Of a stretch of 20,586 bases of DNA, positions 3 through 6,201 are shown piece after piece. A model generated the notes under the pieces. It did not search any database and was not told the DNA's origin. It was given only the letters and a program-made list of their open reading frames with translations. Position 1 is the first letter of the stretch, and every line of letters starts with the position of its first letter. The translations under genes and the position numbers were made by a program. The stretch spans positions 1 through 20,586 of IMG/VR virus record IMGVR_UViG_3300034061_003333. One strand, given 5' to 3'. This stretch comes from a virus.

Positions 3-356
3 CGCCCCGCCGACGAGAAGGCGATTGCCGAAGCCGCCTACGGCGGGCGCATGGGGAACAAGAACCCCGGCGACGGCTGGCGCTTCATCGGCCGTGGTCT
101 GATGCAGACCACGGGCCGGTACAACTACGAGAGCTTGGCCGAGATCGTGAACATGCCGGTGGACGACATGCCCGAGTGGATCGAGACGCGCGAAGGCGCG
201 GCCGAGAGCGCCGCGATCTTCTGGCACGCCAAGAACTGCAACGACGTGGCCGACGCTGGCGCCGTGGACCGCTGCCGCCAGCGGATCAACGGCGGCCTCA
301 TCGGCATTGACGACGTGCGCGCCCGCTACGCTACTGCGCTCGGACTTCTGACGTAG
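3..356 (+). CDS. Endolysin, GH19 chitinase-like, C-terminal part (5' end outside window)
   Basis: The reading frame is open from base 3 with no start needed, so the gene begins upstream of the window. The visible part has the glycoside hydrolase 19 pattern found in phage endolysins: YGGRMGN, then GDGWRFIGRGLMQTTGRYNY, and near the end a conserved INGG. The catalytic glutamates of the family lie further upstream and are not visible. By family knowledge it cleaves the glycan of host peptidoglycan at lysis. Being on the plus strand, it probably ends the late region that resumes with the terminase and portal genes at the other end of the window. Its last 26 bases overlap the 3' end of the opposing 65-aa gene. 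An internal ATG at 51 exists but is not the true start, because the homology continues upstream of it. Confidence 0.88.
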   Translation, partial: RPADEKAIAEAAYGGRMGNKNPGDGWRFIGRGLMQTTGRYNYESLAEIVNMPVDDMPEWIETREGAAESAAIFWHAKNCNDVADAGAVDRCRQRINGGLIGIDDVRARYATALGLLT

Positions 357-528
357 CGGCGTTCAAGATCTCGCGCCGCTCGCGGAGGTTCCGCAGGACG
401 GTGAACCGCTGGTGCATACGGATCAGAAGGGTGGGCCGACGCTCACCCCGCAGTTCCGCCTGGATCATTCCCTCCAGTTCGTCTTCGCGTAGGCTACCCA
501 GTCGGGCGTTCAGTTCACGCCAGTTCAT
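331..528 (-). CDS. Small protein, last gene of the DpdA operon
   Basis: This 65-aa protein is not recognised. It starts MNWRELNARLGSLREDELEGM and is rich in Arg, Glu and Leu, so it is probably a short helical, charged cytoplasmic protein. Its ATG overlaps the TGA of the helicase gene by 4 nt (ATGA), which indicates translational coupling and supports it as a real gene. Its 3' end overlaps the opposing endolysin gene by 26 nt, so the two transcription units meet tail to tail with no room for an intergenic terminator. Function is unknown; in phages, small proteins downstream of a helicase are often accessory factors, but nothing in the sequence shows this. Confidence 0.7.
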   Translation of the reverse strand: MNWRELNARLGSLREDELEGMIQAELRGERRPTLLIRMHQRFTVLRNLRERREILNAATSEVRAQ

Positions 529-1871
529 GCCGGTGTTCCTTTGAGTTCATCCAAGGCAATGTCCGACACCGCCCGCTTGTCGTAGAGCGCAGCCCAGATG
601 CGCTCGTCAATAGTCTTGTTACTTAGTAGCACGTAGGCCCAGACCGGCTTGGTCTGGCCGCCACGGTGCAGCCGCCCGACCGTTTGTTCGAACAACTCCA
701 GCGACCAGGGCAGCGAGACGAACACCATCTTGTTGCCGCCGTGCTGAAGGTTCAGCCCGTGCCCGGCCGACTTCGGGTGGATCAGCAGTAGCTGGATCTT
801 GCTGGCGTTCCACCGGGCGATGGCGTCGGGCTCGTCCACGGTCGCGGCGTGGGGGTAGCGCCGCCGCAGTTCGGCCAGCTCCTCGCGGTAGTTGTAGACC
901 ACGATGGTGTTGTCCCGCTGGTTCTCCGCCAGGATGTCGTCTAGCAGGTCGAACTTGTGCGGCGAGAACCAGACCGCCTCCTTGGCTTGCGTAAACTTGC
1001 CGGCCGTTTCCTGCGCTACGGTCTGGCTATTGTAAATGAACCCGCTGGCCATCTGTTGCAGCTTGCCGGTGACGGACGCCGCCGTCAGGGCCGTGATCTG
1101 CTGGCCTTTCAGTTCGACGAGGTAGTCCTTCTTCATCTTCTCGTAAGGTGCCCGGTCAGCCAGGTCGCAGCGCATCTCGACCGTGTGCAGCGGCGGCAGG
1201 CGGTCCTTGTACTCGCCGGGCTCCAGGACGTAGGTGGTCGGGCGGATGGCGTCCATGACGGCGCCCAGGGCGCCCTTACGCGGCATCCACTCGCCGTACT
1301 CGCGGTTGAGGCAGACAAAGTACTTTTGGAGGAAGGCGCCCTTCGACCGGCCCAGCAGCGCCTGCTCCACGATCTTGCATTGCCCGAAGACGTCCTCTAG
1401 GCCGTTCGACGTGAAGGAGCCGGTCAGGCCCCAGCGCACGTTGAACGGCTCGATGTGCTTCTCGAGCGTTTTGAACCGCTTCCCCGACGGGTTCTTCAGC
1501 CGGGTCAGTTCGTCGAAGACGATGCCGTCGAAGCTGCTAAGATCCGGCGGCGCGGTCTGGAGGTTGTCGTAGTTGGTGACGACCACTTTAGCGTCCGACG
1601 CGAACGCCGTAGCCCGCTGGCGGGGCGTGCCGACGGCCACGGCTATGGCCAACCCCGGCGCCCACTTCGGCCCCTCGACCGGCCAGACGTCGGTGCAGAC
1701 GCGCTTCGGCGCCAGCACCAACCACCGCTTGACGTGGCCGTCGGCCACCATCGCCGCCATGGCCGTCAGGGTGATCGCCGTCTTGCCGGCCCCCACGGGC
1801 GCCAGGATCATCCCCCGGTCATGCTCGTAGAGGAAGTCGGCGGCGTCGCTTTGGTACGGGCGGAGTTTCAT
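525..1871 (-). CDS. SNF2/DEAD-like superfamily 2 DNA helicase
   Basis: This 448-aa superfamily 2 helicase has the motifs in order: an N-terminal Q-like LRPYQ; Walker A APVGAGKT at 24-31; motif Ia near LVLAPKRV (51-58); TNYDNL near 99-104; Walker B DELT at 120-123; a motif III-like GLTGS near 153; and motif VI QTVGRLHRGGQ at 396-406. The last is typical of SNF2-type phage helicases. A longer frame runs up to 2039, but those 56 extra residues are low-complexity Arg-rich shadow sequence. The ATG at 1871 overlaps the upstream TGA by 4 nt and puts MKLRPYQ at the N terminus, as in the family. Such helicases often occur with a VRR-NUC protein in phages, and here that nuclease is encoded three genes upstream. 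Expected role: ATP-driven DNA remodelling in replication or recombination. Confidence 0.92.
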   Translation of the reverse strand: MKLRPYQSDAADFLYEHDRGMILAPVGAGKTAITLTAMAAMVADGHVKRWLVLAPKRVCTDVWPVEGPKWAPGLAIAVAVGTPRQRATAFASDAKVVVTNYDNLQTAPPDLSSFDGIVFDELTRLKNPSGKRFKTLEKHIEPFNVRWGLTGSFTSNGLEDVFGQCKIVEQALLGRSKGAFLQKYFVCLNREYGEWMPRKGALGAVMDAIRPTTYVLEPGEYKDRLPPLHTVEMRCDLADRAPYEKMKKDYLVELKGQQITALTAASVTGKLQQMASGFIYNSQTVAQETAGKFTQAKEAVWFSPHKFDLLDDILAENQRDNTIVVYNYREELAELRRRYPHAATVDEPDAIARWNASKIQLLLIHPKSAGHGLNLQHGGNKMVFVSLPWSLELFEQTVGRLHRGGQTKPVWAYVLLSNKTIDERIWAALYDKRAVSDIALDELKGTPA

Positions 1872-2347
1872 GAGCGCACTTTGGAGATCAGCCACGCCCA
1901 GATCGCGCCGCCGCACACCTTCGCGGCAAACTGAAGCACGATGATCTGCGGCATGAGGACGCCGAACGCGAGCGTCGGGAACACCAGCGAGTCCACGGCC
2001 GCGCCCGCCACATTGGAGGAGTTGGCCCGGAACAGCCAAGAACCGCGGAGCTTGGAGAACACCAGCCAGTCAACGAGCGCCGCAACGGTGAACGCCGCCG
2101 AGGACGCGATGGCGATGTGGACCGCCGCAGGGTTGAGGATGAACGTCAGCGCACCAGCGCCGAAGATCAGCGCGCCCATCTGCCAAAGCTTCAGCCGAAC
2201 GTGCAGCCAGTCGCGGAGCGCGAGGTCCAGCCCGATAAACAGAAACGCATTTATGGGCGACACCCAAGGACCAAAGAAAGCAATGGACAGGTTGGCGGCC
2301 GTCATGGCCGTGGCGTACACGGCGATAGCGATGTAGAGCATGTTCAT
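1868..2347 (-). CDS. VUT/YhhQ-type queuosine precursor transporter
   Basis: This 159-aa integral membrane protein has about five or six hydrophobic segments (roughly residues 3-22, 32-47, 56-72, 75-97, 118-135 and 137-155). It carries the VUT (YhhQ/QPTR) signature: an Arg followed by SNVAGAAVDSLVF at 111-123, with SN, DS and F at the conserved places. Earlier polar residues D41, R45 and D46 lie in a GLDLALRDWLH segment. Cellular YhhQ imports preQ0/preQ1, precursors of queuosine; this copy is shorter than the roughly 220 aa of E. coli YhhQ. It is coupled by ATGA overlaps to the upstream DpdA-like gene and the downstream helicase gene. Next to a DpdA homologue, its likely job is to supply a 7-deazaguanine base in the infected cell. 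The substrate is inferred, not shown. Confidence 0.8.
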   Translation of the reverse strand: MNMLYIAIAVYATAMTAANLSIAFFGPWVSPINAFLFIGLDLALRDWLHVRLKLWQMGALIFGAGALTFILNPAAVHIAIASSAAFTVAALVDWLVFSKLRGSWLFRANSSNVAGAAVDSLVFPTLAFGVLMPQIIVLQFAAKVCGGAIWAWLISKVRS

Positions 2348-3060
2348 TCTCCGTATGTGTATGTGGAAGGTGCGTTGTGGGCCTCAATTCTGGCCCGCAT
2401 GACGTAGGCCCTCGCCTCTTTAGTTGGCGGGAGGTAGTTACCGCTGGCCCATTTCTTATCTATGCCGACGTTCCGACCTATGTTGGTCGAGTCGGCGCTG
2501 GCGAACGGAAGCCGCGTGAACACCTTGGGGTTCAGCATCCGAAGGCCGTGCAGTTTGCACAACGGCCGTCCCTGCGCGTCGCAGGCCGCCGTCATGGCTT
2601 GGCCGATGCGGCGCCACCAGAGATCGTTACCTACCACGGAGTACTCGCCGGAGCTACCGATGCAGACCCTGGGGTACTGGTTAACCAAGCGGTCGAGGCG
2701 GTCCAGCGTTTCGTGCATGTGCCAAACCGGCGCGCCGAACCATAGCGGCAGCGGCCATTCGTCCAGCAGCGCGTCGTTCGCCGCCTCGTCGCCGTCTATG
2801 ACGTCGGGGATGACCGCGAAGTCGCAGGACGGGATGCGGCGGCACGCCTCGGCCCACTCGTAGAACGGACGCCAGTCCTTGACCGGCGCCCCCGCCTTCC
2901 ATGCAGAGAAGGCGCCATTGTCCACGGCGAAGGACTGGCACACGCTCACGGCGATGCCGAGCTGTTCCGCGTGGGCGAAGCTGATGAAGGCGTGGCCCGC
3001 ACCGATGGCGTGCGCCGCCGCCGTCGTCGGTGAGATGGGTAGCCCGTGGTAATGTATCAT
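2344..3060 (-). CDS. dpdA: DpdA-like 7-deazaguanine DNA transglycosylase (TGT fold)
   Basis: This 238-aa protein shows the pattern of tRNA-guanine transglycosylase (TGT) and its DNA-acting relatives (DpdA). AVDNGAFSAW (D47) corresponds to TGT SDSGGFQ with the general acid/base Asp. PDVI (85-88) is in a base-recognition position. CIGSSGEY (133-140) corresponds to TGT GGLAVGE. KLHGLRMLNPKVF (169-181) matches the LMGVG-P segment, and ADSTN (D190) matches the nucleophile-bearing FDC segment. TGT exchanges guanine for a 7-deazaguanine; DpdA proteins do so in DNA. The C-terminal zinc motif of bacterial TGT (CxCxxC...H) is absent: no cysteine follows D190. The adjacent transporter supports a role in 7-deazaguanine chemistry. 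DNA rather than tRNA as substrate is inferred from phage context and small size. Both ends overlap neighbours by 4 nt. Confidence 0.76.
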   Translation of the reverse strand: MIHYHGLPISPTTAAAHAIGAGHAFISFAHAEQLGIAVSVCQSFAVDNGAFSAWKAGAPVKDWRPFYEWAEACRRIPSCDFAVIPDVIDGDEAANDALLDEWPLPLWFGAPVWHMHETLDRLDRLVNQYPRVCIGSSGEYSVVGNDLWWRRIGQAMTAACDAQGRPLCKLHGLRMLNPKVFTRLPFASADSTNIGRNVGIDKKWASGNYLPPTKEARAYVMRARIEAHNAPSTYTYGE

Positions 3061-3350
3061 AGCGTCATGGCCCAGGCATCCACCTGCTCCTTCGTCCAGA
3101 GGCAGGCGTACCGCTGCCCCATGCGTTCCATCTCCTGCGCGAACAACTTCTGGAGCGGTTCCAGCCGGCCGCCCTTCGTCTTCAGTTCGATGAACCAGGT
3201 CTGGCCGCTAGGCAGGCAGACGATCCGGTCGGCTACGCCGCGGTGAGTTACCGACCGGAACTTGTAGGCGACGCCGCCCAGCCGGATGACGTGCCAGACC
3301 AGATGGCGTTCAATCTCGCTCTCGCGCATGGCCAACCCATACCGCTGCAT
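3057..3350 (-). CDS. VRR-NUC domain nuclease
   Basis: This 97-aa single-domain PD-(D/E)XK nuclease is of the VRR-NUC family. Visible catalytic signature: GVADRIV with D41, then FIELKTKGGRLEPLQ with E55, K57 and Q67. An N-terminal RESEIE helix carries the conserved early Glu. In phages such stand-alone VRR-NUC proteins cut branched DNA, perhaps resolving recombination or replication intermediates, and frequently sit near an SNF2-like helicase, as here. It is the first gene of the leftward operon and overlaps the DpdA-like start by ATGA. The start is uncertain: ATG at 3350, or ATG at 3329, which begins MRESEIE as many family members do. Neither has a strong Shine-Dalgarno sequence. Confidence 0.9.
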   Translation of the reverse strand: MQRYGLAMRESEIERHLVWHVIRLGGVAYKFRSVTHRGVADRIVCLPSGQTWFIELKTKGGRLEPLQKLFAQEMERMGQRYACLWTKEQVDAWAMTL

Positions 3351-3415: not shown

Positions 3416-4555
3416 ATGGCAGCACACTCCAACATCGTCGGCGGTTCGACCGCCAAGCGGGTCATCGCCTGCCCCGGCTCCGTAAAGCTGGTGCAGCAGA
3501 TGCCGCCCCGCCCGTCGTCCCGCTACGCCGACGAAGGCACGCTCTGCCACACCATCATGGAGGCGGTGCTGACGCAGGACCGTCAGCCGGAGGACTTCAT
3601 TGGCGACAAGCTGGGCGACGTCACCGTCTCGCGGGAGTTGATCGACACGAAGATCCGCCCGGCCATAGCGGCCCTGAGCGAGATCGACCCGAACTTCGAC
3701 ATGACCTACGAGTGCGAGGCCGTCGTCGGCTTCGGTGACGCGCTGCCCGGCGTCTTCGGTTCGGCGGATCTGGTCGGCCGGATTGGCGACACGGCCATCG
3801 TGCTGGACTGGAAGTTCGGGGACGGCGTGGACGTCGCCGTCGAAGAAAACCCGCAGGCGATGTTCTACGCTGCGGCGGCGATGCGGACGCCCAAGGTCGC
3901 GTGGGCCTTCAAGGGCGTCACACACATCGACTGCGTCATCGTCCAGCCGACGGCCGCGAGGCCGGTGAAGTGGTGGCGCACGACGCCCGACCGCATCCGC
4001 GCCTTCGAACGGCAGTTGTTCGCCGCCGTGAAGGAGGCGCTGGGGCCGGATCCGTCCATGCAGACGGGCGACCATTGCCGCTGGTGCGCGGCCAAGCCGG
4101 TCTGCCCGCTGCTGACGGGTGCCGTGGACCGGGCGATGAAGACCAGCCTCCAGAACATCGACGCCGCCCGGCTGGGCGAGATGCTGGAGCAGGCACCGCT
4201 GATCGAGAATTACCTTGCGGAGGTGCGGGCGCTGGCGCAGCACATGCTGGAGGAGGGCGTCCCGGTGCCCGGCTTCAAGCTGGTGCAGAAGCGCGCGATC
4301 CGCCAATGGGTGAACGACGACGAGGCTCAGGTGGCGCTGGCGCGCCTCGGCCTCGACGACACGGAATTGACGGTGACGAAGCTGGTCAGCCCGGCGCAGG
4401 CCGAGAAGGCGCTGAAGAAGCGCAAGCTCGCGCTGCCGGGTGAACTGGTCGTCGCCGTCTCAACAGGCAGCACGCTGGCCCCGGAGAGTGATCCCCGGCC
4501 GGCGGTCCTCAACATTGGGCGTCAGCTAGCCAACGCGCTTGGAAGGCTTGTTTGA
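3416..4555 (+). CDS. DUF2800 family PD-(D/E)XK exonuclease with Fe-S cysteines
   Basis: This 379-aa protein is of the phage DUF2800 family, related to RecB/Cas4 nucleases. Seen in order: IACPGS with C19; GTLCHTIME with H45; GSADLV with D118; VLDWKFGDG with D131 and K133; QAMFY with Q147 and Y151; and CRWCAAKPVC with C221, C224 and C230. The Asp, Asp-x-Lys and Gln-Tyr set is the RecB-type catalytic core. The N-terminal Cys plus three clustered C-terminal Cys is the arrangement that binds a 4Fe-4S cluster in AddB/Cas4 enzymes. DUF2800 genes typically sit in phage replication modules beside a family A polymerase and a primase-helicase, as here. Expected role: DNA end processing for recombination or replication. 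It opens the rightward operon, with an RBS (GAGGAC) ahead of the ATG. Confidence 0.88.
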   Translation: MAAHSNIVGGSTAKRVIACPGSVKLVQQMPPRPSSRYADEGTLCHTIMEAVLTQDRQPEDFIGDKLGDVTVSRELIDTKIRPAIAALSEIDPNFDMTYECEAVVGFGDALPGVFGSADLVGRIGDTAIVLDWKFGDGVDVAVEENPQAMFYAAAAMRTPKVAWAFKGVTHIDCVIVQPTAARPVKWWRTTPDRIRAFERQLFAAVKEALGPDPSMQTGDHCRWCAAKPVCPLLTGAVDRAMKTSLQNIDAARLGEMLEQAPLIENYLAEVRALAQHMLEEGVPVPGFKLVQKRAIRQWVNDDEAQVALARLGLDDTELTVTKLVSPAQAEKALKKRKLALPGELVVAVSTGSTLAPESDPRPAVLNIGRQLANALGRLV

Positions 4556-4556
4556 T

Positions 4557-5045
4557 ATGTTTGCCGAACACTCGCTCCGCGACGTTCTGTCGTATGACCC
4601 GGAAACCGGCGAGTTCACATGGAAAAAAGACATGCGCCGCGCAAAGGCCGGTTCGCGCGCCGGGTATAGAAGGCCGGATGGCTATCGAATTATCACCGTG
4701 TTCAACTACCAATACAGAGCCGGTCGTCTCGCGTGGTTTTTTAACTACGGCAAATGGCCTTCAAGCGAGATAGACCATATAAACGGCGCCCGCGACGACG
4801 ACCGCATCGCAAACTTACGGATCGCGACGCGAAGCCAGAACGTGGCGAACACGAGAAAGAAATGCTCCAGTCGTAACCTATTGAAAGGTGTTACTCTTAC
4901 TCGATCCGGTAAACGCTACATGGCGCAGATACGTATCGGAGGAAAGAACACCCGGTTAGGCACATACGACAGCGAGCAAGAAGCGCACGAAGCCTATCTG
5001 GCGGCGGCGCAAAAAGAATTCGGTGCGTTTGCACGCGCCGGATAG
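4557..5045 (+). CDS. HNH endonuclease with C-terminal AP2 DNA-binding domain
   Basis: This 162-aa free-standing homing-type endonuclease has an HNH core, EIDHINGARDDDRIANLRIA at 71-90 (D73, H74, N76, N86), followed by RSQN. An AP2-like DNA-binding domain follows at about 108-160 (LKGVTLTRSGKRYMAQIRIG, GTYDSEQEAHEAY). The start at ATG 4557 is preferred: GGAAGG lies 10 nt upstream and the gene follows the DUF2800 stop by one base. A TTG at 4539 would add six residues. Codon use is visibly less G+C-rich than its neighbours (one sampled 60-base line, 4681-4740, is 48% G+C), a mark of recent acquisition. Where relatives usually read AHRLAW, this one reads AGRLAW (G56), so catalysis may be altered. 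It cuts DNA to spread itself and has no expected role in replication. Confidence 0.9.
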   Translation: MFAEHSLRDVLSYDPETGEFTWKKDMRRAKAGSRAGYRRPDGYRIITVFNYQYRAGRLAWFFNYGKWPSSEIDHINGARDDDRIANLRIATRSQNVANTRKKCSSRNLLKGVTLTRSGKRYMAQIRIGGKNTRLGTYDSEQEAHEAYLAAAQKEFGAFARAG

Positions 5046-5103: not shown

Positions 5104-5754
5104 ATGAACGAAGTTACGAAGTTCGGTGACGCCAACCTCCCGTCCGTGCAGTCGCTGTCGCAGTCTCTGCGGTCGCTCAACACGGGCACGACGCTCGGCA
5201 ACACGGTCATCCTCAAGATGGACAAGACCGGCCATTGGGTGTTCGGCGCCGACCAGACTGAGGTCGAGTCCGACAGCCTGTGGGCCATCAACCCGTTCAG
5301 CTTCACCCACGGCTACATCGCTTGGGGTGACGGCGAAGTGCTAGGCGAGAAGATGGTGTCGGTGCAGCAGCCGCTGCCCGAACTGGAGCCGGCGCCGCCG
5401 CAGTCGAAGCGGGGGTGGGAGCCGCAGGTCGGCATGTCGCTGAAGTGCATCAGCGGCGAGGACAAGGACATGGAGACGCGCTTCTCGACGACCTCGGTCG
5501 GCGGCAAGCGGGCCGTGCAGGTGCTGGCCCTCGCCATCGCCACGCAGGTCGAGAAGGACCAGTCCAAGCCGGTGCCGGTGGTGCGGCTGAAGAAGGAACA
5601 CTACACCCACAAGAGCTACGGCCGCATCTACACGCCGGTGTTCGAAGTGGTGGAGTGGGTCAGCCTCGACGGCCCCGGTGCGGAGGTGGCCGAGGAGGCC
5701 GCCGCCGAGGAACCGGCGCCGGAAGCGGGTCGCCGTCGTCGTCGCGCGGCCTGA
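5104..5754 (+). CDS. Replication-module protein of unknown function (possible ssDNA-binding protein)
   Basis: This 216-aa protein is not assignable to a named domain by eye. It has a Ser/Thr-rich N terminus (LPSVQSLSQSLRSLNTGTT) and a compact middle with LWAINPFSFTHGYIAWGDG. A Pro/Glu linker follows near residues 88-102 (LPELEPAPPQSKRGWEPQ). The second half is mixed beta-like, with SVGGKRAVQ and YGRIYTPVFEV. The tail is acidic (EEAAAEEPAPEA) and ends in Arg residues. In related phage modules the slot between a DUF2800 nuclease and the family A polymerase is often held by a ssDNA-binding protein (DUF2815), but this sequence does not resemble DUF2815. That role is inferred from position only. 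A good RBS, AAGGAA, precedes the ATG. The gene is bracketed by two HNH genes. Confidence 0.75.
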   Translation: MNEVTKFGDANLPSVQSLSQSLRSLNTGTTLGNTVILKMDKTGHWVFGADQTEVESDSLWAINPFSFTHGYIAWGDGEVLGEKMVSVQQPLPELEPAPPQSKRGWEPQVGMSLKCISGEDKDMETRFSTTSVGGKRAVQVLALAIATQVEKDQSKPVPVVRLKKEHYTHKSYGRIYTPVFEVVEWVSLDGPGAEVAEEAAAEEPAPEAGRRRRRAA

Positions 5755-5796: not shown

Positions 5797-6201
5797 ATGA
5801 CGCAAGACACGCCGACGCCCCCGAAAGACTGCCCTACCTGCGGCGGTCTTTTCGCGCCAGCCCGCCCTTGGCAGCAGTATTGCACTCCCCGCTGCCGAAA
5901 TAACTCGCCGCGCAAAGCGGCGCAGACCCAGCGTTTTCAGCGGCTGCGGCGGAACATGATAGACCGCATAAAAACAGAGCGCGGGTGTTCGGCGTGCGGG
6001 TACAGCGCCCACGCCGCCGCCCTCGATTTTAACCATGTTCGCGGCAATAAACTATTTAACGTTAGCCAAGACCCTAAACGGTCGTTGCACAGCATAATGC
6101 AAGAGATAGAGAAGTGCGACATCCTATGCGCGAACTGCCATAGAATACACACTTACGAAAACCGCCATTGGCACACTAAGCGCAAAGGCTCGGAAGAATG
6201 A
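5797..6201 (+). CDS. HNH endonuclease with N-terminal zinc ribbon
   Basis: This 134-aa protein begins with a zinc-ribbon-like segment (C12-x2-C15 ... C29-x3-C33). An HNH domain follows, of the type whose structural zinc is held by two further CxxC pairs: C64-x2-C67 and C111-x2-C114. The active site would be DFNH (77-80) with N113 and H115 in CANCHRIH. A Lys/Arg-rich stretch links the parts (40-62). It is likely a free-standing homing endonuclease. The sampled line 6001-6060 is 52% G+C, below the phage background. Its TGA overlaps the polymerase ATG (ATGA at 6198-6201), so insertion left the polymerase start intact and coupled. No good Shine-Dalgarno sequence is seen, because the terminator-like hairpin sits directly upstream. 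Confidence 0.88.
   Translation: MTQDTPTPPKDCPTCGGLFAPARPWQQYCTPRCRNNSPRKAAQTQRFQRLRRNMIDRIKTERGCSACGYSAHAAALDFNHVRGNKLFNVSQDPKRSLHSIMQEIEKCDILCANCHRIHTYENRHWHTKRKGSEE

Follow-up and report, generated by a model that had tools for sequence, protein, structure and literature searches.

Where do phages that carry a DpdA transglycosylase, and lack genes for making its substrate, obtain the modified base? The question has been open since 2019 (PMC6884629). The closest described systems are the singleton phage DpdA enzymes (group 3 of Hutinet et al., 2019; DpdA/TGT_1 of the MED16 study), found in phages MED16, 7-11 and SEN1, for which no phage preQ0 synthesis genes are reported. In MED16, dpdA is the only such gene, and 2′-deoxy-7-amido-7-deazaguanosine (dADG) has been detected in virion DNA by liquid chromatography-mass spectrometry (PMC8306585). 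In other phages, CAjan without dpdA loses 2′-deoxy-7-cyano-7-deazaguanosine (dPreQ0), and the 9g DpdA alone inserts dPreQ0 into plasmid DNA (PMC6884629). Hutinet et al. (2019) proposed that DpdA-only phages use host preQ0 or take up a precursor, and found YhhQ homologues in some phages without correlation with any phage group (PMC6884629); a salvage role for a Vut_1 transporter had already been proposed for Pantoea phage Vid5 in 2018 (PMC6266253). Here we describe a locus in IMG/VR virus record IMGVR_UViG_3300034061_003333, a 20,586-bp linear fragment of an uncultured phage with 65% GC (the whole stretch analyzed, “the window” below), in which the gene for a short DpdA-like enzyme overlaps that for a VUT-type membrane protein of the queuosine precursor transporter (QPTR, YhhQ-type) family. 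The two are probably a supply-and-insert cassette, by which phage DNA would acquire 7-deazaguanine bases.

The window enzyme belongs to the same short family as those of MED16, 7-11 and SEN1; what sets the window phage apart is a dedicated QPTR gene, since those three have no importer beside dpdA. Seuratvirus CAjan, whose DNA has ~32% of G as dPreQ0 and for which the motifs GA and GGC are reported, likewise encodes both a DpdA and a phrog_4899 transporter. However, CAjan and EC151, which has a preQ0 transporter as well, also make preQ0 (FolE, QueD, QueE, QueC), and the CAjan transporter is 2.3 kb from dpdA, whereas the window genes adjoin. Vid5 has a comparable putative preQ0/preQ1 transporter (Vut_1/COG1738 type), but has retained the greater part of the pathway, and its DNA contains 2′-deoxyarchaeosine (dG+; ~7.55% of G). 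The same two-part salvage logic, importer plus transglycosylase, is seen in bacterial QPTR/YhhQ and tRNA-guanine transglycosylase (TGT), including QPTR-TGT fusions (PMC11130926); there the target is tRNA, while the window enzyme falls in a DNA-modifying family. The components of the cassette and the idea of uptake are therefore not new. A recurrent DpdA-QPTR cassette, and the exchange of its supply gene for QueD or QueE, appear to be undescribed in the literature found, though an earlier description may exist.

Both genes are on the minus strand, the DpdA-like gene at 2344..3060 (238 aa) and the VUT-like gene at 1868..2347 (159 aa), joined by a 4-nt ATGA stop/start overlap at 2344..2347. The sequence-only reading of this DNA had placed the two genes here, and its coordinates, overlap and motifs are all borne out. 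An alternative VUT start, ATG at 2341-2339 on the minus strand, lies 2 nt past the DpdA stop, and the GGAG spacing is better there.

The arrangement extends well beyond the window. With the enzyme as query, at least 594 relatives were found in IMG/VR, and a VUT gene lies directly downstream in 68 of the best 80; an independent search with the VUT protein returned 260 relatives, with a DpdA gene present in 80/80 of the best loci. Five scans, each taking the best 80 per query and with some contigs common to several, so that the counts are not unbiased frequencies, covered 394 viral DpdA loci: 247 with VUT, 40 with QueD and/or QueE, and 107 with neither. VUT and QueD/QueE occurred together within 2 kb in 0/394. 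Within 30 bp after DpdA, VUT is found in 223 loci and QueD in 43; where relatives have no VUT, its place immediately behind DpdA is often taken by a QueD-like gene and rarely by a QueE-like one. A QueE-like gene takes the VUT slot in locus L045 (4710-5327; TIGR04508 118 bits, below cut-off), and QueD-like genes directly follow DpdA, with no QueC or FolE in the contig, in L077 (1966-2325), L065 (3215-3577) and L051 (1297-1719). Such lone QueD genes would give a one-step boost to the host pathway. The mutual exclusion of VUT and Que genes is a property of this DpdA branch and not of all phages, since CAjan combines a transporter with the complete pathway.

On a tree of 153 non-redundant DpdA proteins, the supply-gene label needs 24 changes, so that the pairing has been gained or lost repeatedly; counting the starred branches alone, VUT still needs at least 10 changes and the Que genes at least three. 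VUT takes precedence in these labels, and the claim of exclusivity rests on the 394-locus count rather than on the tree. The pair also varies in setting (before or after VRR-NUC, after a helicase, near terminase or primase), as would fit a mobile unit. Seven cultured phages carrying it were checked: DpdA precedes VUT in Acinetobacter phage AB3P2, and VUT precedes DpdA in PEAT2, Tbat1_6, Opt-719, Phc, RCIP0319 and LHE71. Both genes are under strong purifying selection: the ratio of nonsynonymous to synonymous substitution rates (dN/dS) is ~0.06, in a comparison of the window with locus L006 in which dS is near saturation and the value approximate. The frequency of pairing, its recovery from the VUT side and its recurrence on the tree support the view, already taken in the sequence-only reading, that enzyme and transporter are functionally coupled and not neighbors by chance.

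The 238-aa protein contains the motifs VDNGAF (D47), GSSGEY (135-140) and ADSTN (D190). D47-N-G-A-F51, G135-S136-G138 and S188-x-D190-S191-x-N193 are invariant across 36 DpdA-like homologues. The putative catalytic acids, D47 and D190, stand in D-[NS]-G-A-F and S-x-D-S contexts, and D47, H114, G135, H171 and D190 match the equivalent positions of the 9g and CAjan enzymes in the alignment; putative catalytic or binding residues are D47, D86, H114, G135-G138, H171 and D190. The protein falls in phrog_887 (queuine tRNA-ribosyltransferase; E 2.6e-69), to which the DpdAs of 9g, CAjan, 7-11, MED16 and SEN1 also belong. Profile alignment by hhalign matches it over its full length to MED16 DpdA (E 4.5e-55, 43% identity), and also to those of 7-11 (E 9e-37), CAjan (6.5e-10) and 9g (1.9e-9). 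Homology with experimentally studied enzymes thus identifies it as a short phage DpdA, as had been proposed. It has no Pfam match (TGT, PF01702, included) and no NCBIfam match, and a profile search of PDB sequences gave nothing for either its alignment or that of the VUT protein. Its AlphaFold2 model is barrel-like, with a predicted local distance difference test (pLDDT) score of 83, and most key residues coincide with predicted strands or follow closely behind them, a placement typical of active sites in TIM barrels. Significant matches in the viral structure library BFVD include phage queuine tRNA-ribosyltransferases, which make up most of the named ones, and HHpred places the related MED16 DpdA with TGT (2ASH, 99.18%; PMC8306585). 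From these relatives and library matches we tentatively infer a TGT fold.

A second DpdA subfamily (L153, 3330-4010; A1 rows L089-L157), ~226 aa long and 38% identical, has a C-terminal CAxC in most members and is also linked to VUT. Weak TGT-like matches ~1.6 kb from QueC in Variovorax and Achromobacter (L249, G031:C23:516943-517530; L250, G035:C5:613447-613836) are possibly bacterial DpdA genes of a dpd-type cluster.

The 159-aa protein carries SNVAGAAVDSLVF, an instance of SN-x6-DS-x2-F, in which N112, D119, S120 and F123 are invariant across 26 VUT homologues. It scores 45.3 bits against Pfam Vut_1 (PF02592), above the gathering cut-off of 27.2, and its AlphaFold2 model has six membrane helices (pLDDT 92.9). 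The proposal that the neighboring gene belongs to the YhhQ/QPTR family is upheld. The NCBIfam queuosine precursor transporter equivalogs are below cut-off (TIGR00697, 23.8 bits against 50.95; NF008406, 25.9 against 252), and the protein is best described as a relative within the QPTR family, not as an assignable equivalog. It shares phrog_4899 with CAjan gp41, a “putative preQ0 transporter” (hhalign E 2.7e-8). Phage mEp021 (MH706966) also has a phrog_4899/VUT gene (L517, 2429-2941), which is followed directly by a gene for a putative DNA cytosine methyltransferase and has one for an adenine methyltransferase close by.

A model consistent with these observations is as follows. Using TGT-type chemistry, in which D47 and D190 would be the decisive acids, the 238-aa DpdA would remove guanine from DNA and put a free 7-deazaguanine base in its place, most likely preQ0, with preQ1 or queuine as alternatives. 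The QPTR protein would presumably act inward, importing the base or topping up the host pool so that supply does not limit insertion, and the source of the base would be the medium or the host, hence no need for synthesis genes in the phage. A supply gene beside DpdA, whether for an importer or for one more pathway enzyme, is what would be expected if supply were limiting. This agrees in most respects with the import-then-base-exchange scheme of the sequence-only reading, which calls for correction on two points: that the system is salvage-only, and that it would block host restriction.

Several results weigh against the model. A fold search of PDB with the 238-aa model returned general TIM barrels (dehydroquinase, TrpA and others), with TGT not among the top 50, and a profile comparison of its family with ten bacterial (host) TGTs was not significant, aligning the DSGGF motif alone; the TGT fold proposed earlier is consequently favored by relatives and the viral library and not by these two checks. 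The substrate of a QPTR protein is not readable from its sequence, because members differ: E. coli transports preQ0/preQ1, Chlamydia queuine (PMC11130926). No DpdA is found within 2.5 kb of the VUT gene of mEp021. Mycobacteriophage Orion, with DpdA only and a host without the pathway, shows no modification (PMC6884629), and in phages with DpdA only, the share of G replaced by dADG is ~0.13% (MED16) or ~0.02% (7-11) (PMC8306585, PMC6884629); the short DpdAs may therefore work poorly or have partly diverged, a possibility that Hutinet et al. also raise. The literature found contains no DNA measurement for any phage with the two-gene cassette. Finally, most hosts make preQ0, which leaves the reason for import unexplained.

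How far can the system be called salvage-only? The window has no match to FolE, QueD or QueC, as had been noted, and likewise none to radical SAM proteins; being a linear fragment, it cannot settle the matter for the phage's own genome. The complete genomes of PEAT2, AB3P2, Tbat1_6 and Opt-719 lack QueC, QueD and FolE and have no match to one QueE model of limited reach. VUT-bearing contigs of 29-54 kb also lack QueC, QueD, FolE and any match to this limited-reach QueE model, with one sub-threshold QueC match in G087. On the host side, QueC is strongly matched in 46/49 genomes that harbor a related prophage gene, so that an imported base and a host-made one would be indistinguishable. Salvage-only is accordingly true of the phage gene set, as the four complete relatives show, and not of the infected cell. 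The two prophage hosts in which QueC is matched only weakly, Rhizobium subbaraonis and a Devosia metagenome-assembled genome (MAG), both carry the DpdA-VUT pair. The idea that the importer is carried because the host has no QueC was tried and found weak (no strong QueC match in 2/8 hosts with the paired prophage gene vs. 1/41 others, p = 0.065, uncorrected for kinship).

Another possibility is that the enzyme is a reduced TGT which, with an imported precursor, raises tRNA queuosine during infection and so aids translation. PHROGs and several records do label it queuine tRNA-ribosyltransferase, and QPTR importers normally serve tRNA queuosine (PMC11130926). Against this, 238 aa is far below the 357 positions of the TGT Pfam model, the profile match to bacterial TGTs is not significant, the homologues with measured products modify DNA, and the gene neighbors are nuclease, helicase and polymerase genes; in addition, a true TGT was already present in 10/10 host genomes tested. 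We consider a tRNA role improbable. It is about equally improbable that the VUT-like protein transports something else, its link to DpdA being one of operon convenience. The similarity to known transporters is at the Pfam level, with the NCBIfam QPTR scores below cut-off and no solved relative found by sequence; the fold search with the 159-aa model gave only a non-significant likeness to energy-coupling factor (ECF) S-components; and in mEp021 the VUT gene is beside methyltransferases without a DpdA nearby. An unrelated substrate, however, fits poorly with the replacement by QueD/QueE in the same slot, with pairing in both gene orders, and with the presence of DpdA in every one of the best loci of the VUT-started search.

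A stronger competitor, though still rather unlikely, accepts DNA as the target and holds that modification occurs at trace level from the host pool, for a role other than blocking restriction (marking, packaging or transcription, for example), the importer being a minor supplement. The low dADG contents of MED16 and 7-11 favor it, as does the ability of nearly all hosts to make preQ0; moreover, the enzymes tested for dADG showed normal cutting of MED16 DNA (PMC8306585). With trace levels in the DpdA-only relatives and normal cutting in MED16, the earlier statement that the cassette would block host restriction is unproven. Yet MED16 and 7-11 are phages without an importer or other supply gene, and in phages whose DpdA is accompanied by a complete supply pathway, replacement climbs to ~30% of G (CAjan, Rosebush; PMC6884629). 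The retention of an adjacent supply gene in hundreds of loci, under strong purifying selection, also suggests that supply matters. The supply-and-insert cassette, with a presumed benefit to the phage, remains the preferred reading.

In the window, the pair is part of a run of five minus-strand genes chained by ATGA stop/start overlaps. Directly upstream of the DpdA gene is a VRR-NUC nuclease (97 aa, 3057..3350; phrog_93 E 2.2e-25; Pfam VRR_NUC 17.7 bits, below cut-off), with the overlap at 3057-3060, and directly downstream of the VUT gene is an SNF2-type DNA helicase (525..1871; PF00176 47.8 bits; phrog_62 E 1.3e-116), with the overlap at 1868-1871. The run ends with an open reading frame of 65 aa (331..528), which is kept after the helicase in related phages. 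Pfam and PHROGs identify a Cas4-like exonuclease, a family A DNA polymerase, a primase and a terminase on the opposite strand. Two HNH endonuclease genes (4539-5045 and 5797-6201), perhaps homing endonucleases, bracket a gene at 5104-5754 between the exonuclease and the DNA polymerase. The closest match in a cellular genome is locus L162, in a Nitrosomonadales MAG contig, with a DpdA 78% identical to that of the window and a VUT gene; this hints at a betaproteobacterial host.

One branch of DpdA is thus strongly paired with an importer, which is exchanged at the same position for a pathway enzyme. A bolder proposal, possible but on balance doubtful, is that of a widespread, mobile two-gene system in which the level of substitution depends on importing a free modified base rather than on making it: DpdA alone would give traces, drawn from the host pool, while DpdA with an importer or QueD/QueE would give substantial, protective modification, and phage fitness would be tied to the 7-deazaguanines that nearby cells release. 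Several pair-carrying phages infect E. coli (LHE71 infects K-12), making the question directly testable with laboratory strains. The occurrence of the pair in hundreds of related viruses suggests that the building block for disguising DNA is taken up or borrowed rather than made. Should modification be limited by supply, the traces seen in DpdA-only phages would be accounted for, the pair would be a minimal two-gene tool for placing a 7-deazaguanine in DNA, and the protection of phage DNA would be linked to metabolites shared within the community.

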